64,000 nt of DNA, taken from positions 1 to 64,000 of the forward strand of contig JAIQFN010000033.1 in NCBI GenBank assembly GCA_020073265.1. The letters run 5' to 3'. The translations under genes were made by a program, and so were the position numbers. Of the stretch, positions 38,839 to 53,200 are shown piece after piece. A model generated the notes under the pieces. It ran no database searches and had not been told where the DNA came from. It worked only from the letters and a program-made list of their open reading frames with translations. The stretch is from Terriglobia bacterium (GTDB lineage: Bacteria > Acidobacteriota > Terriglobia > Bryobacterales > Bryobacteraceae). Every line of letters starts with the position of its first letter. Position 1 is the stretch's first letter.

Positions 38839-40602
38839 TCAGTCATGGCCGGCGGCATGCGCGGCGTCTCCGGACTGCGGGAGAAAACCAATTGAGCGAA
38901 TCAAGGCGCCGAGCGGCTCCGAATCCCGCGTCGGAAAGAACGGCGGATCGAACGTGATCTCGAAATCCTTCACTGCTTCCGCATCCGATGATACCGGCCA
39001 AGTGAACTTTTGGAATCCGCTTTTTGTGAACCGATATTCGACAATAGTCCGGCCTTGCGACGACACTCGCATGACCTGGTGAAGATTCTCTCCCTGATTT
39101 GGAAGCAGGTAGACGTCGACGGCAAACAGGCCGTCACCCCGAGGCTCTCGCAACCGGATTACGGATCGAGCAGATGCCCATCGGTAACTGACTACCAATC
39201 CCCTCCAGCCCGTCTTGAGCTGCCAGATCGGATTTGTTTCCGCGAAGTCCACATACGAAACCGCATGGCCGTCTCCCGGATAATCGTCTCTGAGCAACCG
39301 ATGCCGGCTGATATCCCATGTCAGAAGGACCGATCCAGGGCGGCGAATGAGTTCCCGCGCCTCGGGGGCATCCACGCGGAAAACGGGAAGGTCGTATTTG
39401 TCGAGCACGTATCGGAAGAGACCCTCCTGCCCCCAGATATTAAAGTCGCCCGGTGTACCTTCAAAGACAACTGCTTTGGGGACTGGGGGTATTGGCAGAC
39501 TGGTGAGGACCTGTGCGACATAGGGCCGATTCTCGTGCCCCAGGGCGAGAATTGGATTCCGCTCTTGGCGCAATCGCTCGTAGCTGGCTGGAATCCAGAT
39601 GATCAGGAACAGAACGGCCCACCAGGGCTTGCTCTCGGCAACCGCGGCCACAACGATTGCGAACGCCAACAAGGGAACATACAGGTACACGCCGGAATGA
39701 CGCTCGGGAAAGAGCAGCATGGGAGCCAGCAAAATCCAAAAACTGATCACGCCGAACGTAACCAGGCGCTGGCGCAGAAACAACACGCCGGCAGAAATGA
39801 CAAGACCCGCCCAAGGCACGTAAAAGAGCTTTCCTCCGTAGTACAAGAGCGCGGCCCACATGCCGCCAAGCGTCAGGTGCGGCGTGTACCAGGACTCCGG
39901 ACCTTTTGGCGCCATCCAGGCTTGCAGTCCGAACGAGAATGACAGGACAAAGAACGGTATCAGAAGCATCCACCGCGATGTAGCTCGATTCCTGGGAAAC
40001 CACCACTCGTACAAAAGCAGCACGGCCGGCAGCATCAACTCCATTTCCTTGCTTTTGAACGCGAACAGAGCGCACAGCAAGCTCAGGAAGATGCGCTGGC
40101 GCTGATAAAGCAAGAGAGCGGCAATGACCCAAAAGCCGCAAAGCGTGTCGAACAAGTACATGGGCTTCCAGTAGGCGGGAAGTGTCGACATGTGCAGCGC
40201 AAAGAATAAAAAGCCCACGGCGGCGGCGGCTGGTCGAATTCCCAAACGCCTGAGAAACAGCCAGAGCATGAGCGACGTCGCGATGTGCACTGCCTGCAGG
40301 ACCGCCACATAGGGCCAGAAGTGAAAGTGCGCGACCGAGCCAAGGATTTTGTAATAGAGAAGGCCGGCCGGCCGAACCATCAGTTCAAAACGCAGACTGA
40401 CGAGCCCTTTGAGTGTTTCGGCCCACGGAACGAACCGCGCCAGCGCTAAGTTGGAGAAGTCGTCATCGCTGAAATAACTCTGGAACGCAAGCTTGCTGAA
40501 GGCTACGAAAAGGCCGATGATCGCAAATAGCGCCAGAGCGCTTACATAGTGCTCCCGAGGTCGCTTGAATCCGTGTGTCGGGCTGTCGGCCAAGTTGAAC
40601 AC
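38839..40602 (-). CDS. Polytopic membrane protein, GT-C glycosyltransferase-like
   Basis: The 587-residue protein has about ten membrane segments in residues 20-370 and a C-terminal soluble part of about 210 residues. The first loop holds SYFSDDDFSNLALARF, an acidic pair placed like the catalytic motif of GT-C enzymes that use lipid-linked sugars; the frequent aromatic residues also fit. I cannot name the family. It could be a mannosyl- or arabinosyltransferase-like protein or a membrane protein of another type. ATG 40602 is used. The neighbouring anti-sigma gene ends 123 bases upstream on the same strand, so it may be part of the same regulon. Confidence 0.65.
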   Translation of the reverse strand: MFNLADSPTHGFKRPREHYVSALALFAIIGLFVAFSKLAFQSYFSDDDFSNLALARFVPWAETLKGLVSLRFELMVRPAGLLYYKILGSVAHFHFWPYVAVLQAVHIATSLMLWLFLRRLGIRPAAAAVGFLFFALHMSTLPAYWKPMYLFDTLCGFWVIAALLLYQRQRIFLSLLCALFAFKSKEMELMLPAVLLLYEWWFPRNRATSRWMLLIPFFVLSFSFGLQAWMAPKGPESWYTPHLTLGGMWAALLYYGGKLFYVPWAGLVISAGVLFLRQRLVTFGVISFWILLAPMLLFPERHSGVYLYVPLLAFAIVVAAVAESKPWWAVLFLIIWIPASYERLRQERNPILALGHENRPYVAQVLTSLPIPPVPKAVVFEGTPGDFNIWGQEGLFRYVLDKYDLPVFRVDAPEARELIRRPGSVLLTWDISRHRLLRDDYPGDGHAVSYVDFAETNPIWQLKTGWRGLVVSYRWASARSVIRLREPRGDGLFAVDVYLLPNQGENLHQVMRVSSQGRTIVEYRFTKSGFQKFTWPVSSDAEAVKDFEITFDPPFFPTRDSEPLGALIRSIGFLPQSGDAAHAAGHD

Positions 40603-40725
40603 GAGCAGCGTTCAGGATGCCACAGTTTCCACGCCTTTGCCGATTGAGCCGGCCGTTTGTGCGGCGGCGTTCGGGGCGAGTCATGAGCCCCACTCTATCG
40701 TGGGACAGCGGGCCGACAGGACGTA

Positions 40726-41586
40726 TTACCTTGCCGGTTGGAGACTGTCCAGTAATCTTTCGAGCGCGGGCTGCCCAGGATGCTGCTCGATCGCCTGTCT
40801 CATCTCGCGCCTCGCATCGTCCAACAATCCAGCGCGGCCGTACTCAACCGCCAGTTGCAGATAGGTCGATTTCCCCGCCGCCAATCCTTGGAGTCTGGCC
40901 GCCGTGGATGCGTCCACGATGCGGAAGCGCGCGGGAGCTTCCGGAGGCTTCTCCAGCGTGACGTGTTCGTTTCCTCGCAGGGCAGTTATCTGCCATTCAT
41001 AGGTCCGGTCGCGAGCCAACACTCGATCGCAGATCCATGCGGTTGTGGCGAGATCCGGACTCTCGGCGGCCGGCACGCCGTCCAAGGCGAAGACCTGCAC
41101 TTTATAGTTCCACCCTTCGCCGAGCGGCTTCCATAGGAAACTCGGCTGCTGGCTGAGCACCGCTGTTCCCTTCGGCGAAAGGAGGGCGGCGCTGGCGGGT
41201 GTGTCACGTCCCATGAGCACCTCGCGCGGCGGATTGAGCTCCTTGACGAACTCAGGCTGCGGGATGCTGCCCGTGCGGAGTGCATCCTCTACGGATCGAT
41301 CCCGGCGTTCGAACCAAACCGTGAGACCGATTGTCGCGAGTATAGCCGCTGCAGCGGCGTAGGCGAGCCACATGCGAGCTGTGCGGTTAGTGCGTGGCCC
41401 CGCCGCGCCCAGCGCCGCGCGAAGATCTGATTCCATCGTTGCAGCGCCGAGGCGTTCCGCAAGCTTCGAGCGGCATTCCTCGCATTGCGCGATATGTTCA
41501 TGGACACCGCGCACTTCGTCCGGAGTGAGGAGCTGATGCTCGTATCCGAACAAAGACTCTGGCGGAAGATGGCTGGACGGGTTCAC
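40726..41586 (-). CDS. Membrane anti-sigma factor with zinc finger
   Basis: The 286-residue protein has an N-terminal zf-HC2-like motif (His31, Cys35, Cys38 in HIAQCEECRSKL), a single membrane segment (about 72-92) and a periplasmic region of about 195 residues with a fibronectin-like part (about 140-215) and a C-terminal helical hairpin of TPR type. Anti-sigma factors of this form hold an extracytoplasmic-function sigma factor until the periplasmic part is cleaved or binds a ligand. The gene follows the sigma factor gene by 42 bases and the TPR-CHAT gene by about 1 kb. Confidence 0.82.
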   Translation of the reverse strand: MNPSSHLPPESLFGYEHQLLTPDEVRGVHEHIAQCEECRSKLAERLGAATMESDLRAALGAAGPRTNRTARMWLAYAAAAAILATIGLTVWFERRDRSVEDALRTGSIPQPEFVKELNPPREVLMGRDTPASAALLSPKGTAVLSQQPSFLWKPLGEGWNYKVQVFALDGVPAAESPDLATTAWICDRVLARDRTYEWQITALRGNEHVTLEKPPEAPARFRIVDASTAARLQGLAAGKSTYLQLAVEYGRAGLLDDARREMRQAIEQHPGQPALERLLDSLQPAR

Positions 41587-41628
41587 CGAACGCTCCCTGC
41601 CGATTCCGAGTGTTTGACAGCCCCCATA

Positions 41629-42600
41629 TTACCTTTCCGGCCCCAAACGCGTATTTAAACGCTTCCTTGCCGCCATGCGAAGGTTGATCACCTGCTGGCG
41701 GGTACAGCCGAGCAGGCCGGCGATGCGATTGTCGTCATACGGCAATTCGACCCATATCGCGGCGAGTTCCGCTTCGCTCACTTCGAGAGCGCCGGCAACT
41801 TCGGCGAACGCGGCGATGCCCGCGGCGGTGAACAGCGCCAGCGCCGAATTGCCGCGGCCAACCCGCAGGTTGAGCAGCAGCGCGACACGTTGCGCGCGGG
41901 GCAGCCGGCGAACCTCGTCCCACAGCCGCGCTGTGAACCGGCGCCGGTCCATGGCCACTTCGGCCCCTGGGCCGGGGGCGGGGATTTCGTTCAGATCCAC
42001 AGCATCGGAATCGTCCACCGGATCCGGGGGAATGTGCCAGACCCGCACCACGATCGCCGCCAACGCATCGAACTCCACCGCGGCGCCCGCGGCTTTGAGA
42101 ATCCGCTGCAGTACCGTAGCCAGATTGCGGTCGCCTTCCACGCCTTGCGCCAGTTGCTCCAGAACCCTCGCGTCGGCGATTCTCGAACGGGATGGCGATG
42201 CTTGTAGCTCGCACCAAGTTCGCCCGTCCGGCCCATCGCTGAGGCGAAACGCGGGCTCGTGCCGCAACACATAGATCACTTGCCTTCGCAATCGCGCCCG
42301 GCCGGGCCGCCTGCGCCGGAAATAGTGATTGCAAGCGTTCGTGGCTAGCACGGACACGTAAGCTGGAAAATCTTCGATTGCGACCGAGGCGGGGTCGGCC
42401 TTCATGCGGCGCAGATGCAGAAGCAGCTCGAGCCGTGCCTCCGAGCACACGTCATCTATGTCGTCCCACAAACCCGCCAGCCTCCGGGAGACGGCGCGGC
42501 GAATAATGGGATCTGCGTTCGCCACGATCAAATCGCCCAGACGCTCCCGCTCCGCCGATGCTTCCGAGGCGTCGACGTAGGACTTGAGCAGTTCGTCCAT
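41629..42600 (-). CDS. Sigma-70 family factor, ECF-like and unusually long
   Basis: The 323-residue protein has a region-2-like part (about 25-98: DDIDDVCSEARLELLLHL, FPAYVSVLATNACNHYFRRRRP) and a region-4 helix-turn-helix near the end (YDDNRIAGLLGCTRQQVINLRMAAR, about 288-312), separated by a long middle of about 180 residues, more than in usual ECF factors (about 180-200 residues in total). It would direct RNA polymerase to its own regulon. It starts seven bases after the TPR-CHAT gene and is followed by its likely anti-sigma factor. Confidence 0.8.
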   Translation of the reverse strand: MDELLKSYVDASEASAERERLGDLIVANADPIIRRAVSRRLAGLWDDIDDVCSEARLELLLHLRRMKADPASVAIEDFPAYVSVLATNACNHYFRRRRPGRARLRRQVIYVLRHEPAFRLSDGPDGRTWCELQASPSRSRIADARVLEQLAQGVEGDRNLATVLQRILKAAGAAVEFDALAAIVVRVWHIPPDPVDDSDAVDLNEIPAPGPGAEVAMDRRRFTARLWDEVRRLPRAQRVALLLNLRVGRGNSALALFTAAGIAAFAEVAGALEVSEAELAAIWVELPYDDNRIAGLLGCTRQQVINLRMAARKRLNTRLGPER

Positions 42601-42607
42601 CGCTCGC

Positions 42608-45421
42608 TCAGTTGGGACTGCCGACTACTTCGAATGCCGCCCAGTAAAAAGGATGCGAATACTTGCCGCCGCCGATCAGGCCGAGTGCGGCATTCCGGAG
42701 CGAGGCGGCCTTTCCGAGCATGGACCCCGAGCGACGGCCCTCCAGCAGCCCTCGGTGGAACCGGATCATCAGGTCCGAATCGCTGGATGATTCTACTGGC
42801 CACAGACTCGCCACGGTGGTGGGAACGCCCGCCACGAAAGCGGCCCACAGCATTCCGTCAATTCCTTCGCCAGGCGGGGCGCGGCCACGGGCGGTTTCGC
42901 AAGCCGACAACACCAGTACGTCGGCCTTGAGATTGAGCGCCATCAGTTCGCGCGCCTCGAAAATACCGTCCTCGCCGCCGGACTTGGCGAGGAGCACGCG
43001 GGAGTACATGGGACTTGCATTGTCCAGAACCGCGTGCGAAGCGAGATGCAGCACTCTGTACCGCCCGGCTTCTGCCTTTAAGGCAGCTTCGGTGGCTGCT
43101 TCGCCCGTCAGAACCCGGCTGGCTTCGGAGCCATACAAGCCTTGAATGGCCCGAACCTGCCGGGCCGCTTCCGGCAGCCGATCATGCCCGGCCGGGTCCC
43201 CGAAGGCCAGCAACTCGCGGTCGGCGGAAGTCTGACTGCGGCCCCGGGAGATGCGCATCGTTTCGCGAAGCACGGCCATCGACGGCGAGTAGGACACCGC
43301 CGCGTCTTCGATCAAGAAGTGCTTCTCACGCGGCTGCAGCGCATGGAACGGTATATCCCAGAGCTGCTCATCCGGAATGACGATCAGGGCAGTCTGGCCC
43401 GACAGGTCCGCTTCCACTGGACCCAGCAATATACGGTACAGTTCCCGTGCCGCCGGCGCATAGCCCAGATCGTGCGAGGCAAGCTGGCGGTTGAACTCGG
43501 AAGCCTTCGCGGCCAGTGCGGCTTGGCCGATGCCGAGCGCCGCCACGCGCGGGCGTGTCCCAGGCTTGATCACAAACACGTACGTGTTGGCGGGAGTGAC
43601 CAGGTAGTTGAGCACCAGGGCACGGGCCTCCGCCGCGGTCTCCTCGATCTGGGCAACGCTCAGCGCCGGCGCCACTCCGCGCTGGAAAGCCGTCTCGGGG
43701 TGAGCGGCATAGAGCGTGCTTTGCAGAGCGGCGAGTTCACGCCGCGCCCGATCGAGCTCTGCCCTCGGAGCCGGCGCCTCGGGTTGAGCGGCGATCTGAA
43801 GATTCAACGCCACCAGCCGGCTCTCGATGCTTCGTTCGGCTCGCCGCTCCTCGGCTGTCAGCGCCTTATTCAGATCCACACGGCCGGAGCGAAGAATATC
43901 ACCCAACACCCGCGACTTGGATCGCTCCGTAAACTCGAGCGCCTCTTCCGTTTTGCCGGCTGCCAGCGAAATGGCGACTCGTTCCTGGTAGGGCTCGAGT
44001 TTGTTGGCAAAATAGGCCGGCAGTGCCGACGGCGGCGCTGTCACGCGGGCGCGCAGGGATTCGATGGTAGCGATCGAGGCGTCGAATTCTCGGGCCGCTT
44101 CTTTGTCGCGCTGGAGACGGCGCAACGCCTGGCCCACCGCCAGTTGTGCCTCCCAAAGCGTTTCCGGCCGATCGATGCTGGCGAGCAGGTTCTCGGCTTC
44201 CCGAGCCAGGGCCAGCGCTTCATTCACATGTCCCAATGCCAGCTTCATATGCGCCAGCTCGGACAAAGTGCCCGCCAGGTTCGGCGTATCCGAAATTTCA
44301 CGCTCGATCGCGGCGGCCTGGCGCATCTCGGCGTCGGCCTCCGCGTAGTGCTTAGAGCGGAACGACACGCGCGCCAGCCCGACGCGCGCCTCCGACTCCA
44401 CCAGCCGGTAGGAGCTCGCGCGCGACAGGTCGAGACACTCGCGATAATGCCGCGCAGCTTCCTGCAGATGGTTTGCCGACAGCATCTCGGCGCCGAGGTT
44501 CTTGTGTAAGTCGGCGTCGATGCTCTTGTCGCCGACCGTGCGATTCAACGCCACCGCCTTGGTGAAGAACGCGATGGCCTGCTCGTGGTCGCCTTGCGCG
44601 GCGTAAACCAGACCGATATTGTTGGTCGCCTCGGCCACCGCCCAGCGCGCGCCGATCCGTTCATCGGCCTGAAGCGCTTGCCGATAGGCCTGCAACGCCG
44701 GGCGGTAATTTCCGCGATAAGTCTCGATCACCGCGATGTTGTTCAGCGCGTTTCCGAGCCGCGAATCGTCGCCCAGCCTTTCAGCGATCGCCATACTTTG
44801 CCGGCTGTACTCCAAGCCGCGCTCATAGTCGCCCAGCTCGCCATATCCGATGCCAAGATTGTTCAGCGCGACGGCGCGCCGCCGGTCGTTTCCAAGCGCA
44901 CCGAACTCCCGTTCCGCCCGGTCCAGATATTCCAGCGCGAGCAGCTTGTCGCCCAATTGCCGGGAGGCGTTGCCCAGGTTGTTGAACGCCATCGCGACTC
45001 CGGCGCGATCGCCCAGTTTCTGCCGGATCTCGAGCGCGCGCTCGATGGTTTCCTTCGAAGCCTGGAAATCGCCTCTGCGGTACTGCACGTTCGCGATCTG
45101 CTGCAGCGCGTCGGAGATGCCTTTTTGGTCGCCCAGTTTCTCGCTGATCGCCAGGCCCTGCCGCGCCAGCTTCTCGGCGTTATCGTAGTTCGCCTTGCCG
45201 TATTCGACGGCGGCACTGCCGGTCAACGCGGCCGCCTGCGATTTCTCGTCGCCCGATTGAACCGCCAGATCGAGAGCGCGCCGATAAGCCCTCATTGCCT
45301 GGTCCCACTGATTGGCGGTGGCGGCCTGATCGCCTGCCGCGAGAAGATCCGCGAGTTCGCTGGTCTGCGCCGCGCAGGTCCAGGTCAACACGAGCAGAGC
45401 CAACGTTACCATGAACCGCAC
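42608..45421 (-). CDS. Secreted TPR-CHAT protease
   Basis: The 937-residue protein has a signal peptide (about 1-18), a TPR array of about nine or ten repeats (about 25-440: MAFNNLGNASRQLGD, ALNNLGIGYGELGD, ATNNIGLVYAAQGD), a helical linker and a C-terminal CHAT domain (about 620-930). The caspase-like dyad is intact: His796 in LHLASHAVLD and Cys841 in LVLSACETARG. CHAT proteins are cysteine proteases that cut specific partners. It is the first gene of the operon with the sigma and anti-sigma genes (gap to sigma seven bases). With a signal peptide it should sit in the periplasm, on the same side as the outer part of the anti-sigma factor, which is a plausible substrate. Confidence 0.9.
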   Translation of the reverse strand: MRFMVTLALLVLTWTCAAQTSELADLLAAGDQAATANQWDQAMRAYRRALDLAVQSGDEKSQAAALTGSAAVEYGKANYDNAEKLARQGLAISEKLGDQKGISDALQQIANVQYRRGDFQASKETIERALEIRQKLGDRAGVAMAFNNLGNASRQLGDKLLALEYLDRAEREFGALGNDRRRAVALNNLGIGYGELGDYERGLEYSRQSMAIAERLGDDSRLGNALNNIAVIETYRGNYRPALQAYRQALQADERIGARWAVAEATNNIGLVYAAQGDHEQAIAFFTKAVALNRTVGDKSIDADLHKNLGAEMLSANHLQEAARHYRECLDLSRASSYRLVESEARVGLARVSFRSKHYAEADAEMRQAAAIEREISDTPNLAGTLSELAHMKLALGHVNEALALAREAENLLASIDRPETLWEAQLAVGQALRRLQRDKEAAREFDASIATIESLRARVTAPPSALPAYFANKLEPYQERVAISLAAGKTEEALEFTERSKSRVLGDILRSGRVDLNKALTAEERRAERSIESRLVALNLQIAAQPEAPAPRAELDRARRELAALQSTLYAAHPETAFQRGVAPALSVAQIEETAAEARALVLNYLVTPANTYVFVIKPGTRPRVAALGIGQAALAAKASEFNRQLASHDLGYAPAARELYRILLGPVEADLSGQTALIVIPDEQLWDIPFHALQPREKHFLIEDAAVSYSPSMAVLRETMRISRGRSQTSADRELLAFGDPAGHDRLPEAARQVRAIQGLYGSEASRVLTGEAATEAALKAEAGRYRVLHLASHAVLDNASPMYSRVLLAKSGGEDGIFEARELMALNLKADVLVLSACETARGRAPPGEGIDGMLWAAFVAGVPTTVASLWPVESSSDSDLMIRFHRGLLEGRRSGSMLGKAASLRNAALGLIGGGKYSHPFYWAAFEVVGSPN

Positions 45422-45488
45422 GCCATGATTGTACGTCGTGCGACACCTGTGCCGCCCGTGGAACCACCCTAAAAAACCGTCCGACCAG

Positions 45489-46310
45489 TTAGCCGCGGCG
45501 AGCGAAGGCTTTCCGGAAAACGAGCGCCAACAGACCCAAACCCGCCGTCGCCAGTGTCGAAGGCTCCGGCACCGTGCTGGGCGTGTCGCCAGGTAGGGTG
45601 ACCTCTCCGGGAGTGGTCAAAAATCCCGAGGTTTGATCCATCGTAACGCCATCCGGTAGGTCGAAAGAGATCAGAGCCGTATGGGAGACACCCAGGGTAG
45701 CCGACCCGTTGGCATTCCCAGAGATGTTGAAAACGAATTGGTACTCAGTATGAGTTGCATCAACCGGGAACGTAACGGAAAGATCGTAAGGGAACGCCAG
45801 GTCTGTGTTACCGAAAAAGGGCGTCGGATCACCTGCCTGGACGTGGGCGCTGGTCGGGCATCCGTTGAAGGTACGATCCGCCAGGTAGACCTGCGTGCAA
45901 AAGATGTTAGCCGAGAAACTGACGCCGTTCAGTACCGGGTCCCCGAGCGTGTCGAAGACCCCGGCGATCATCATGTGTATGGTGACATCGCCGGATCCCG
46001 AGAAAGCCTGATTCACAATCAAATCGGCCGCCGCCACTTGGCCACTGCCGTCCGGGGCACCCATCACGTCGAAACCCAGAGCCCCGTGAAAAAGATCCGC
46101 GTAGGCTCCTGGTACCTCAGCCAGACTGCTCGACGTTTCTTCGTCGCCGATGGTACCCGAAGGGGAATGCAACTCGGCCACAACGATGAATGCGCCAGGA
46201 GTAAAGAGATCCAACTTGATGGGATCGACAATGGGGCCAGCCTGTGCCACACCTCCCGCAAACACAATCCCGAGCAGTAGCGCCGCCCATGGCCTGGCAT
46301 CCATCGTCAT
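45489..46310 (-). CDS. PEP-CTERM secreted protein
   Basis: The 273-residue protein has a signal peptide (about 1-24), a beta-rich body without recognised domain and the C-terminal signal VPEPSTLATAGLGLLALVFRK, a typical PEP-CTERM tail for exosortase sorting. ATG 46310 is chosen because GGAGG precedes it by six bases; the frame stays open to 46586 but without a start signal. The gene stands alone, 67 bases upstream of the TPR-CHAT start on the same strand; a run of six T after its stop is not preceded by a convincing stem. Confidence 0.82.
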   Translation of the reverse strand: MTMDARPWAALLLGIVFAGGVAQAGPIVDPIKLDLFTPGAFIVVAELHSPSGTIGDEETSSSLAEVPGAYADLFHGALGFDVMGAPDGSGQVAAADLIVNQAFSGSGDVTIHMMIAGVFDTLGDPVLNGVSFSANIFCTQVYLADRTFNGCPTSAHVQAGDPTPFFGNTDLAFPYDLSVTFPVDATHTEYQFVFNISGNANGSATLGVSHTALISFDLPDGVTMDQTSGFLTTPGEVTLPGDTPSTVPEPSTLATAGLGLLALVFRKAFARRG

Positions 46311-46528
46311 TCTGGTCCTCCGTGCACCGTTAGGTGTCTGACTTCGCCGTCGCATGATCTGAGGAACCATCGCGCGAGATATTACCTCCACTCCCAAGGA
46401 TCTCGAACGCGGGCTGGGTGAAAGCGTCGGCTGGCGCTCAGCGCCTTCGGCAACTTCCTGTGGATGAATTCCGGGCAGCACAGAGAACGCGGTTTGGTAC
46501 AATGTTAGCCACGCGGAGGTCCCACCGA

Positions 46529-47887
46529 ATGCGAGCGTACGCGACTGGTTTGATGCTCCTCTGCGCGGCATCCGCCGCCGCAGCACCCACCTTCACCAGA
46601 GATGTCGCGCCCATCTTTTACAAGAACTGCGTGAGTTGCCACCGTCCTGGGGAACTGGCTCCCATGTCGTTGCTCGATTACCGGTCGGCTCGTCCCTGGG
46701 CCAAGGCGATCCGGGCAGCGGTAGCGACGGGCAAGATGCCGCCCTGGTTTGCCGATCCCCGGTACGGGCATTTTTCCAATGACACCCGCCTGAAAGAGCA
46801 GGATATTGCCACGGTCAAAGCGTGGGTGGACGCAGGCGCGGCCGAGGGCGACCCCAAGGATCTGCCCGTGCCCCCAAAGTTCGTTGAAGGATGGCGTCTG
46901 GGAAAGCCCGATCTGGTTATCGACATCGGACAGGACTTCCGGGTGCCTGCCGGCAAAGACCTGTACAAGGATTTCGTCGTTCCCACAGCTTTCACGGAAG
47001 GCAAGTGGATTCGCGCCGCCCAGGTCCTGCCGGGAAACCGCAGGCTGGTTCATCATGTGCATGTCTACGTGGTGGCGCAGGGTACGGATGCTGATTCCCA
47101 ACAGGAGGCCAAGTTGGCGGTGGCCAACCGGGTACCGTCGCTCGCCGGCTTCGCGGAAATTGAAGACGGGTTGACGCGGGTTCGCGAGGATGCCCCGGTG
47201 ATCAACGACGCCTGCGCCGCCAACGCGAATCTTCCCAATTTGAGCGGCTTTGAGGAAGGATCGCTGACCACCATGCTGCCGGGCAAGCCGCCGGACGATT
47301 TCGACGTGTTCGGCGACGGCAGCACCGCCAAATACATACCCGCCGGGGCCAAGCTGCGGTTCCAGATCCACTATGCCAAAGTCGATGAGGCCGGTACCGA
47401 TCGGACCAGCGTTGGGCTGTACCTGGTAGCCAAGGCGCCGGAGAAGCCGTTAAGACGCGTGGATCTGCGCAATCGATTCTTTCTGATTCCCGCGGGCGCT
47501 GGAAATCACGAGGTGAAGCGGTGCTATGACGTGGAGCAGGACAAGCTGCTGGTGGCGATCACGCCGCACATGCACTACCGAGGCAAGGACGCAACCTATG
47601 AGCTGATTCACGCCGACGGCAGACATGAGATTCTCCTGGTGGTCCCGCATTACGACTTCAACTGGCAGTTACAGTACCGCTTCGAGAAGGCGATCCTGAT
47701 GGAAAAAGGAAGCCGCATGGTAGTTACGTTCCACTACGACAACAGTCCGAACAACCCGGCAAATCCGGAGCCGTCCAAGGCGATTCGCTGGGGCGACCGG
47801 ACCGAAGACGAAATGATGGTCACCTGGACCGAGACCATCAATGTTTCCCCGGCCGGTTCTTCCTTGAACGCATCCGCGGGGAAGTAA
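46529..47887 (+). CDS. Cytochrome c / copper type II monooxygenase-like protein (paralog 2)
   Basis: The 452-residue secreted protein (signal peptide about 1-19) has one haem site CVSCH (34-38) and a copper-monooxygenase-like region with His175-His176 (and His178), His281, His347 and His349 (PHMHYRG) and His402 (FHYDNS), all positions of paralog 1 kept. It has an insert of about 60 residues (about 186-265) that includes one cysteine (Cys229). ATG 46529 is chosen because GGAGGT lies eight bases upstream; ATG 46502 is possible. The gene converges on the seven-haem TPR cytochrome gene 13 bases away. Confidence 0.8.
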   Translation: MRAYATGLMLLCAASAAAAPTFTRDVAPIFYKNCVSCHRPGELAPMSLLDYRSARPWAKAIRAAVATGKMPPWFADPRYGHFSNDTRLKEQDIATVKAWVDAGAAEGDPKDLPVPPKFVEGWRLGKPDLVIDIGQDFRVPAGKDLYKDFVVPTAFTEGKWIRAAQVLPGNRRLVHHVHVYVVAQGTDADSQQEAKLAVANRVPSLAGFAEIEDGLTRVREDAPVINDACAANANLPNLSGFEEGSLTTMLPGKPPDDFDVFGDGSTAKYIPAGAKLRFQIHYAKVDEAGTDRTSVGLYLVAKAPEKPLRRVDLRNRFFLIPAGAGNHEVKRCYDVEQDKLLVAITPHMHYRGKDATYELIHADGRHEILLVVPHYDFNWQLQYRFEKAILMEKGSRMVVTFHYDNSPNNPANPEPSKAIRWGDRTEDEMMVTWTETINVSPAGSSLNASAGK

Positions 47888-50238: not shown

Positions 50239-53200
50239 TCAGTAGTTCAACCGAAGGGCGAATTGAACCAGCCTGGGATTGTTCAGTTGCGAACCGATTA
50301 CCCCAAAGGTGGTCGTTCCCAAGGCGACGCCCGGCCGTCCGAACTGCACGCGATTGAAGAGATTAAACACCTCCGTGCGGAACTGGAGCTGGAAGCGCTC
50401 GGTTATAGCCGTGTTCTTGAAAACCGTGAAATCGTAGTTCGCGACTCCATCCGTGCGGACGTCGGGCAGGTTGCGTCCAGCGTTCCCGAAGGTAGAGGCC
50501 GCCGGCGTGGTGAAGTCTGCAACATTGAACCATTCATTCAGCCGCGACTGCGCCGACCCATCCAGCTTCGCGCTTTGGCCTGTGCTGTTCGGCCGCGAGA
50601 GGCCACCGAAGGAATTCGTGAGATTCACCGCCGTGGACAACCCCAGCGGGAAACCGCCCTGGAAGGTAGAGATCCCATTGATTCCCCATCCGGATACCAG
50701 CTTCTCCGCCGGCCCGTGGAGTGAACTGAGATACTTCTTCTGCTTTCCGAAGGGGAAGTCGAGAACGTAACTTATCACCAGGCGGTGAGCGACGTCGAAA
50801 CTGGATAACGCGCGCTCCGCGGCCAGGTTGTAGTTGTTCGCTGCGACGCTAAAGGACGAAGTGGATTGGCCTCCTTCCAGCCAGAACGTGTCCGTTTCGC
50901 GGTCGGCAATCAGCTTGGACCAGGTGTAGGAGCCCGAGACCGTGCCACCTTCGGCGAAGCGTTTCTGGACGCGCACCTGCATGGAGTGGTAGATGGAGTT
51001 CCGGTTAGACTCTCCAAAACTCACCCCGTCGTACTGCGGGAACGGGCGCAGAAGCTGTCCCTGCGCGACGGTGGGAGCAGCCAGGATTCCCGTGGTCACT
51101 AGTCCGTAGAACGGGTTGGGAACCTGTTTCTGGAGCACGGCGCTGCCCAGAGCCTGGTTCTGCGGCGAGAGCTGGTTTTGATCGATCGCGCCCGCAAGAT
51201 GGGTGCCTTTCGCGCCGGCGTAGGCGACTTCGATCACAGTCCCGCCGGCAAGCTCCCGCTGAACGTTGAAGTTCCACTGTTGAATATACGCCGCCCGAGT
51301 TTCCACCCCGTTCGCGGTGAGCTGGTATCCGCTGCTGACAGACTGGGCGATGGCTTGGCCCAGCAGGGCGGTCTGGTAACTCGGATCGCGCCCGAGCGGT
51401 GCGAGCAAGCCATTCGGGAACGGATTGCTCAAGACGGCGTTCGGCGTCAGGCTGCCATCCAGGGTGGATGCCCAGTTGGTAGTGGTTTGGGTAAGCGGAC
51501 CAATGCTTCCGCCCCCGAGTATGTCGTATTGAGCCGGGTAGAAGATACCGTAGCCACCACGGAGCACGGTCTTATCAGTGAGGCGGTAGGCGAAACCTGT
51601 GCGCGGCGCAAACAGGAGGTAGTGCGGATTCTGATTGTAACGATTTTCGTGATCTGACGAGTTAACCAGCCCCAGCCGGCCCTTGAGCGGCAACCCGGTG
51701 TATGCGGCCGCTGGACTCACGGCATTCGGGAGAAATACGTCCATGCGGTCGAATCGCTCGGTGTAGGGAATGGTGGGTTCCCAGCGGATCCCGAGGTTGA
51801 TGGTCAACTTCCGGCTCAGTTGGAACGTGTCAGACGCATAATATCCCTGATAGTACTGCCTGGTAGCGTAAGGCGCCGGTTCGTTTGCGTTCCCACCCGA
51901 TCCGAACCCCAGCAGGAACGAGGCATATCCGGAGCCGGTGCCGGCGGGAGCAAACGGATTGGCCGAGGTGAAGAGATTGTCGAAGTTGTAAGAGCCGCTG
52001 GCATTCTGGCTTTGGCTGTAGTTGGTGTCCATTCGCCGGACTTCGCCGCCGAACTTCATGGTGTGACGGCCCTTGATCACAGTAAGACTGGGCGTGACCG
52101 CAAGAATGAGATTGTCTTGCAAAATCACGCTGCCCGTTCCGGAGATCGAAGCTATGTTCTGGATCACCGGGTAGGGGAAGGTGCGATACACAACCGAGTT
52201 GTTGAGACTGGCGGGCTGCCCGAACGTCGTGAGGTCGAAACCCAGGCTGGACGGGGAGCGATCATAGACGTACCGCACGCCCGAAAAACGAAAATCTCCA
52301 ACCACTGACGGACTGAACACGTAGGTGTCGCCGAGCACCAACTGTTGAGAAGTCACGGTTTCCAGCCCGATATCCGGGTGAGTCTTGTTTTGGAATGGAT
52401 CGATGGGGATGTTGTTGTACCACCAGCGCGTATAACGGCCGAACAAGTGCTGCTTGTCGCTGACGTTCTGATCCACCCGGCCATTGATCTGGTTGCTATC
52501 GCCGCCGATACTGGCGTTGGTGGAGAAGTTCAGGCTGTTGGTGAATGGCTGGCCCGGTATATTGGGGTGTGCGAACAAGTCCCGCATAGCCAGAGCCGTC
52601 TTATCCATGCGGCTGAGCGGGATCAAGTTGTTGTCGAACGGGCGGCGCAAGACGGTTTGGCCGGGCGCGCAGGGAGCGTTGCCCAGGACGCCGCAAGTGG
52701 TCAAGGGGTCGTAGATAGGAATCAAAGCGCCGGAGGCGCTACGCAGATTCGAGAAGTCGCCGTTGCGCCATTGGTCGGTCGGGACGCTCAGCAAATACGA
52801 TTGCCCCTGACGCTGTCGGAAACCTTCATAGCCAAAGAAGAAGAACGTCTTGTCTTTCACCACGGGTCCACCGATCGTCCCTCCAAACTGGTTCTGGGTG
52901 AAGGGAGGACGCGCTACGCCGGTCCGATTGTTGAAAAAGTTGTTGGCGTTTAGGACCTTGTTTCGCAGGAACTCATAGGTGCTGCCGTGGAACTCGTTCG
53001 TTCCGGACTTGGTGGTGAGATTGATAACTCCGCCCGCAAAACGGCCGTACTCCGGGCCAATGTTGTTGGTCTGCACACGGAACTCTTGCACCGCATCCTG
53101 GGCCGGAAGCATGGTGGTCAGGTTAACCAGGAACAGGTTCACCGGACCTCCGTCGATGTAGGTGACACTCTGGTTCCCAAAACCGCCGCCGATCTGGAAG

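Follow-up and report, generated by a model that had tools for sequence, protein, structure and literature searches.

The window analysed here, a stretch of 64,000 nucleotides at the start of contig JAIQFN010000033.1 of a soil-dwelling Terriglobia bacterium (Acidobacteriota), contains three open reading frames on the minus strand in the order CHAT, sigma, anti-sigma. They encode a TPR-CHAT protein that looks exported, a long sigma factor resembling the extracytoplasmic function (ECF) type, and a membrane protein that is probably its anti-sigma factor (Table 1). The first two genes are separated by 7 bp and the second and third by 42 bp. Using the genomes of relatives, the association of the three genes was found to be real, to extend across Acidobacteriota and to be independent of one gene layout. 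The interpretation favoured here, at a probability of roughly one half, is that the exported CHAT protein would serve as a dedicated site-1-like protease, or at least a partner, of the outer domain of the anti-sigma factor in a three-part envelope signalling module. A preliminary description of the window had placed the three genes in one operon; the common strand and the tight spacing were confirmed, and on these two features the operon is a plausible assignment. A simple scan of positions 40500-45800 for sigma-70-type promoters, which does not cover ECF promoters, found none.

Table 1. Coordinates of the three genes and their domains and motifs in the window
Feature	Position	Strand	Basis
Exported-type TPR-CHAT protein, 937 aa, GTG start	42608..45421	-	Pfam CHAT 214 bits, TPR_12 141 bits; open frame
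Signal-peptide-like N-terminus, about residues 1-19	45365..45421	-	12-residue core, mean hydropathy 2.43
CHAT peptidase domain, residues 656-934	42620..43456	-	Pfam CHAT (PF12770)
Catalytic His796 codon (predicted)	43034..43036	-	kept in 11/11 sigma-linked CHATs
Catalytic Cys841 codon (predicted)	42899..42901	-	kept in 11/11 sigma-linked CHATs
Long ECF-like sigma factor, 323 aa, ATG start	41629..42600	-	TIGR02937 and Sigma70_r2, both sub-cutoff; profile A7; Foldseek
Sigma region 2	42307..42498	-	PF04542
Insert part, weakly like the N-terminal domain of RNA polymerase delta	42025..42132 (approximate)	-	profiles A4, A7
Region-4-like C-terminal helix-turn-helix with TRQQVINLRMAARKRL	41644..41775	-	alignments; AlphaFold2 (AF2) helices 276-283, 290-297, 301-319
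Putative membrane anti-sigma factor, 286 aa, GTG start	40726..41586	-	HxxxCxxC, one transmembrane segment, adjoins sigma
Zinc motif H31-C35-C38	41473..41496	-	invariant in A2 (3 sequences) and A5 (6 sequences)
Transmembrane segment, about residues 74-92	41311..41367	-	hydropathy; AF2 helix 68-105, low confidence at 76-93
Outer FN3-like beta sandwich, residues 135-223	40918..41184	-	AF2; Foldseek
Outer TPR-like helical hairpins, residues 226-281	40744..40911	-	AF2 helices; TPR_14 sub-cutoff

The CHAT domain of the window protein far exceeded the curated cut-off of PF12770 (214 bits versus 24). Both His796 and Cys841 lie in CHAT motifs, and the pair was retained in all 11 aligned sigma-linked CHATs, the window protein counted, and in 102 of 104 rows when the complete set of CHATs in the tree is considered. 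By domain and dyad the protein was assigned to the CHAT peptidases, and proteolytic activity is predicted. Signal, transmembrane and zinc-motif calls were made in scripts by simple rules. According to simple hydropathy, with no trained predictor involved, the N-terminus is a Sec-type hydrophobic segment ending in CAAQ, and the protein looks like an exported one; export-type cores with a mean hydropathy of at least 1.98 were present in 10 of the 11 sigma-linked CHATs, the core of the remaining one (L189) being unclear at 1.75. A role in a known defence system was considered using PADLOC and set aside: for the window CHAT it gave a generic TPR model and, within the TPR region, a weak match to C3a156; neither the sigma nor the anti-sigma factor was matched, and of four further CHATs run through the program one, L105, showed a weak match to BovA.

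The window sigma factor scored under the cut-offs for both Sigma70_r2 (21.9 bits; Pfam cut-off 24) and TIGR02937 (30.0 bits; NCBIfam cut-off 42.9), and its region 4 reached 9.6 bits. Among 14 subfamily members, Pfam matches at E up to 1 were obtained for region 2 in 11 and for Sigma70_r4_2 in three; the C-terminal helix-turn-helix is conserved in the subfamily alignment. A search with the single window sequence returned no solved relative at E up to 1. In the PDB, profile A7, built from 28 sequences, hit an ECF sigma factor at E 9e-4, and the top Foldseek matches of the AF2 model were sigma factors, none of them reaching E 0.001. Despite the sub-cutoff family scores, this profile match and Foldseek together make an ECF-like sigma factor the probable identity. 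The AF2 model, with a predicted template modelling score of 0.38, was used for domain-level statements only. Alignments and AF2 show regions 2 and 4 to be separated by some 100 additional residues, whereas ECF (group IV) sigma factors are compact, their two domains being joined by a short linker. Profiles A4 and A7 matched 2krc and other delta chains in this insert (E 0.002-0.005), and Pfam gave no support for a delta-like insert; it is possibly a built-in polymerase-modulating domain, which is offered as a lead and not as a finding.

In the third protein the pattern His31-x3-Cys35-x2-Cys38 is accompanied by a single hydrophobic segment near residue 74. The zf-HC2 score was 17.9 bits, under the Pfam cut-off of 22.2; the protein was identified as a zinc-type anti-sigma factor because its relative at locus L009 passes that cut-off with 39.2 bits. 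It has the N-terminal HxxxCxxC motif, the one transmembrane segment and the position beside its sigma gene that are characteristic of zinc-binding anti-sigma (ZAS) factors, and it probably restrains the adjacent sigma factor. The outer part of about 190 residues was modelled as a beta sandwich with helical hairpins on its C-terminal side (AF2, six sequences, mean predicted local distance difference test score 78). Its best Foldseek match was the C-terminal domain of MtxA (4z29, E 1.3e-5); most of the next matches were FN3 domains, with E above 0.001. The anatomy given in the preliminary description, namely the sigma gene 7 bp behind CHAT with the anti-sigma gene next, a signal peptide and the His796/Cys841 pair on a TPR-CHAT protein, and a zinc motif, a membrane location and an outer domain on the anti-sigma factor, was borne out by the open reading frame coordinates, by Pfam, alignment and simple hydropathy, and by the HxxxCxxC pattern, hydropathy and AF2, respectively.

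Relatives of the locus were collected through the sigma factor. In one draw of 396 genomes of the phylum, a three-sequence profile found the window-type sigma in 21 genomes, at 26 loci after two pieces of one gene had been joined, and a scan of named genomes gave six loci, all in Acidobacteriota metagenome-assembled genomes, of which five were not among the 26. These 31 loci were found through the sigma alone; four of the 35 distinct sigma loci (in genomes G062, G089, G088 and G083) had come via CHAT and were excluded. A CHAT of the same type lay within about 8 kb at 13 of the 31 loci, window included. Five of the 13 are codirectional. In the window, L180, L194 and L294 the gene for the zinc-motif protein adjoins; the fifth is L188, and there the outer-domain anti-sigma factor is encoded on another contig of the genome. 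L180, the nearest relative of the window by CHAT, has the same layout as the window. At the eight others (L185, L189, L191, L193, L200, L202, L203 and the locus in G349) the CHAT gene is convergent and faces the sigma/anti-sigma pair. Two loci chosen through CHAT also carry the sigma and a zinc-motif transmembrane protein, L095 in the window layout and L048 in a third one (sigma, anti-sigma, CHAT). As a separate observation, the sigma gene in G349 (L313) has an in-frame stop and its CHAT gene, about 7 kb off, is split over two frames, while the anti-sigma gene is open; joint decay or an assembly error is possible. In a quick CHAT tree, all 11 sigma-linked CHATs fell in one clade (Shimodaira-Hasegawa-like approximate likelihood ratio test support 100) together with ten family CHATs that had been chosen regardless of this sigma. 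Seven genomes lie behind those ten, and six of the seven carry the window-type sigma; a single-sequence search, which is less sensitive, detected it in two out of 37 genomes of the family. Three rows of the 31-row CHAT clade repeat others (L229 of L100, L213 of L049 and L227 of L189). Scattering of the three genes in relatives would, according to the preliminary description, have refuted its proposed mechanism; what was found, namely the linkage just described and co-occurrence at the genome level, does not refute it.

A wider view of CHAT neighbourhoods was obtained from the family, in which CHAT was present in all 61 genomes searched. The sample of 80 loci with 81 CHATs was drawn from the upper part of the match list, some loci near contig ends being skipped, and is non-random. 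Using a sigma model without CHAT-adjacent sigmas, a same-strand sigma was located within 2.3 kb of 30 of the 81 CHATs (36 with a model to which two CHAT-adjacent sigmas from the genome of the window had contributed), and a zinc-motif or other transmembrane protein stands between the two genes at many loci. The near regions (338 kb) held 30 same-strand and 7 opposite-strand sigmas, and the regions 2.3-8 kb away (571 kb) held 5 and 2. The excess near CHAT, the three layouts and the co-occurrence of unlinked genes all argue against chance neighbourhood or a single inherited cassette without shared function; this explanation could draw on the many weak forks of the quick tree and on the shared history of related genomes, and it is judged highly improbable.

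The genome of the window holds four CHAT genes, three of which (the window, L010 and L011) have an export-type N-terminus and adjoin a sigma gene and a transmembrane protein. L011 (contig C108, 7628-10446) comprises a CHAT gene, a sigma factor with regions 2 and 4 and a zf-HC2 protein scoring 26.2 bits. In L010 (contig C57, 8974-14359) the sigma factor matches region 4 at 54.5 bits but not region 2, the transmembrane protein contains TPR, matches zf-HC2 weakly and lacks the HxxxCxxC pattern, and a CHAT gene is the third member. No sigma was seen in the 17-kb stretch around the fourth CHAT gene, which encodes a DUF7379-CHAT protein. Since the 6.4-Mb genome has 36 Sigma70_r2 matches, a sigma at three of four CHAT genes is far above chance. 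Like other such neighbourhoods in the family, L010 and L011 resemble the window module in that an exported CHAT lies close to a sigma factor and an anti-sigma-like membrane protein, but they belong to different sigma and CHAT clades and have different outer parts; they look like parallel pairings. Some further features of these neighbourhoods were recorded. In a separate family group (L098, L103, L105, L119, L133, L144 and L148) a sigma gene lies directly beside a CHAT gene without export signal, and further same-strand genes often follow; this group may be closer in compartment to the type III-E protease Csx29 than the window CHAT is. One 8.3-Mb Acidobacteriota genome, G154, shows a striking expansion with 65 CHAT-profile matches. 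Just upstream of the window CHAT gene, on the same strand (45489-46586), lies a gene for a PEP-CTERM protein, with no sign of module membership.

Co-occurrence was then scored over the 396 genomes. The large searches scored five (sigma, CHAT) or eight (outer domain) first-look candidates per genome, and absences are accordingly not exhaustive; in two narrower scans, of 22 and 11 genomes, all or nearly all candidates were scored. The bit thresholds of 300, 270 and 170 were set after the scores had been seen, and the CHAT and outer-domain models contain sequences from some of the counted genomes. CHAT reached at least 300 bits in 13 genomes, 12 of which have the sigma (Fisher 1.4e-16); with nine model-feeding genomes left out, the sigma was present in three of four high-CHAT genomes against a base rate of 12/387 (p 9e-5). 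The outer-domain model, built from 19 sequences, gave at least 170 bits in 14 genomes and at most 87 bits in all others; this clear gap, from 174 to 87 bits, has no counterpart in the CHAT scores. Every one of the 14 outer-domain genomes carries the sigma and a CHAT of at least 270 bits (partial matches in G058 and G349), in some cases on other contigs. Seven sigma genomes are without the outer domain (G100, G117, G281, G397, G408, G416 and G423), and the CHAT type was found in one of them (G397, 294 bits; p 1.3e-4), or in two if the 256-bit match of G117 is counted (p 1.0e-3). In G397 the CHAT, the sigma and a zinc-motif transmembrane protein stand in a row, and the outer part of the latter fails to match the model. 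The phylogenetic profile suggested in the preliminary description therefore shows CHAT and sigma together also when unlinked, and CHAT following the outer domain (14/14 versus 1/7), which fits this domain as the proposed target. Mirror distances over the 12 fully linked loci, uncorrected for species history, gave partial correlations of 0.41 between CHAT and outer domain given sigma and of 0.07 between outer domain and sigma given CHAT, which points to a contact between CHAT and the outer domain.

Two side observations may be added. In G117 a 67-residue remnant of a CHAT C-terminus, possibly a decayed CHAT, directly follows one sigma gene (L187:1025-1228). A 244-residue protein in G028 (L309, contig C4, about 170825-171277) has one hydrophobic N-terminal segment and a domain distantly related to the outer domain (86 bits), and it adjoins a 931-residue protein; no sigma of the window type was found in that genome.

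Several results weigh against a dedicated CHAT/anti-sigma pairing. No CHAT was seen within about 8 kb at 18 of the 31 sigma-selected loci; many of these stop at contig ends, and two have a CHAT farther along the contig (at 11 kb on G166 C30 and at 30 kb on G381 C125), but L009 shows at least 8 kb on both sides without one. Among the 12 genomes whose best CHAT scored 250-300 bits only four have the sigma, and the CHAT-sigma link is therefore sharp only for the top scorers. G287 and G065 carry the CHAT type, and no sigma was found in them. The sigma genomes without outer domain also count on this side; they may be repurposed lineages. In the mirror-distance comparison, the partial correlation of CHAT with sigma given the outer domain was 0.50. 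G381 has six CHATs above 270 bits (two of them between 270 and 300) for four sigmas. In a further alternative the outer domain restrains or places the protease, the true substrates being other envelope proteins and sigma release a side branch. In its favour, two CHATs for one sigma were counted at 300 bits in G289 and in G032; against it, at that threshold CHATs and sigmas are equal in number in G381 (four of each) and G166 (two of each), and this alternative is considered very unlikely.

The main rival places CHAT at the other end of the pathway, as an output: the sigma factor would turn on an envelope protease acting elsewhere, and proximity would reflect co-regulation. Linkage and co-occurrence are also expected under this explanation, which was counted against the pairing, and sigma/anti-sigma operons often include a target gene. 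Against it, CHAT follows the outer domain among genomes that all have the sigma and correlates with that domain given the sigma, and the convergent layout requires a separate promoter for CHAT. The search of promoter motifs for the sigma regulon, also suggested in the preliminary description, was run as two-block and k-mer counts on the upstream regions of 22 sigma operons and 12 CHAT genes; no motif shared between the two sets was clearly above shuffles, a weak null, and therefore no regulon is claimed. On this evidence CHAT as an output is rather unlikely, though it is the least improbable of the alternatives.

As for the proposed pairing itself, the cytosolic zinc-type domain of the anti-sigma factor would hold the sigma factor at the inner membrane and the FN3-plus-TPR domain would be presented to the periplasm, where the exported TPR-CHAT protein would dock on it, probably via its TPR array. 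Upon a signal, CHAT would cut the anti-sigma factor outside the membrane, and an RseP-type site-2 protease together with cytosolic proteases would complete sigma release. Binding, cutting and release are inferred because CHAT tracks the outer domain, keeps its dyad and appears to be exported, and because of two precedents: Csx29 is reported to cut the sigma inhibitor Csx30 (PMC10028731), and CHAT substrates are reported to be commonly encoded near their protease genes (PMC9729208). The frequent retention of the trio in relatives despite changed gene order likewise suggests that the protease helps to release the sigma factor from outside the inner membrane. For the second cut, Peptidase_M50 (PF02163) gave eight matches in five frames of the genome (best E 2e-64), and an M50 protein on contig C119 is a candidate; the family is present in 14 of 14 control genomes and hence is not specific. 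In an alternative without cleavage, CHAT would be a binding partner in the periplasm, sensing and shielding the anti-sigma factor as RseB does on RseA. Its long TPR array and the TPR-like helices of the anti-sigma factor suggest binding of this kind, and the dyad, conserved throughout the sigma-linked CHATs, argues against it, weakly, since nearly the whole tree set keeps the dyad; a purely binding role is judged unlikely. No better mechanism is at hand than that of the preliminary description, in which the periplasmic protease would free the sigma factor by cutting the outer domain. Linkage, co-occurrence and outer-domain tracking in relatives have strengthened it, and export and the dyad fit it too; it is partly supported, cleavage being its predicted step.

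Compared with known systems, the proposed module resembles the DegS/RseA/RseP/sigma-E pathway in its membrane anti-sigma factor with a periplasmic domain, in the presence of the site-2 protease family in the genome and in the sigma release proposed here. DegS is a PDZ serine protease, whereas the site-1 protease proposed here would be a caspase-like CHAT with a TPR array acting on an FN3/TPR outer domain. ECF signalling is known to be triggered by PDZ serine proteases and PrsW-type proteases, and the module, if confirmed, would be a further trigger route beside them. CHAT proteases are common in bacteria, but substrates are known for few of them. Here a probable substrate domain and a probable output, the sigma regulon, can be named and a large set of natural variants compared, which opens the function of an exported bacterial relative of caspases to direct tests. 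Among the matches listed in a literature search of titles and abstracts on CHAT and sigma factors, no description of the module was found.

The other comparison is with Craspase, the type III-E system of Csx29, Csx30 and CASP-sigma, in which a TPR-CHAT protease is also encoded with a sigma factor and an inhibitor and is reported to cut that inhibitor (PMC10028731). The Craspase protease is cytosolic, while the window CHAT has an export signal, and the candidate inhibitor here spans the membrane, carries a zinc motif and has an outer domain of FN3/TPR type. Csx29 was the sole CHAT protein among the PDB matches of the window CHAT, at a weak E of 0.013, and Csx30 was absent from the PDB matches of the anti-sigma factor at E up to 1. 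No CRISPR array of spaced direct repeats of at least 22 nt was present in window 30000-60000 (Cas7-11 was not searched for); the close direct repeats of that length formed only three families of two copies each, of which two lie within the sequence coding for the TPR part and the third at 50372-50475, and were rejected as an array. With no array, no Csx30 match, an exported-type CHAT and weak Csx29 similarity, the module is not filed as a Craspase member. The analogy with type III-E drawn in the preliminary description holds as a likeness in logic rather than as demonstrated descent. A broader, tentative proposal, about which there is considerably more doubt than about the pairing itself, is that exported CHAT proteases of Acidobacteriota are dedicated site-1 proteases of membrane anti-sigma factors and that Csx29/Csx30/CASP-sigma is a cytosolic variant captured by CRISPR, which would set the CRISPR protease/sigma module in a wider, non-CRISPR context.

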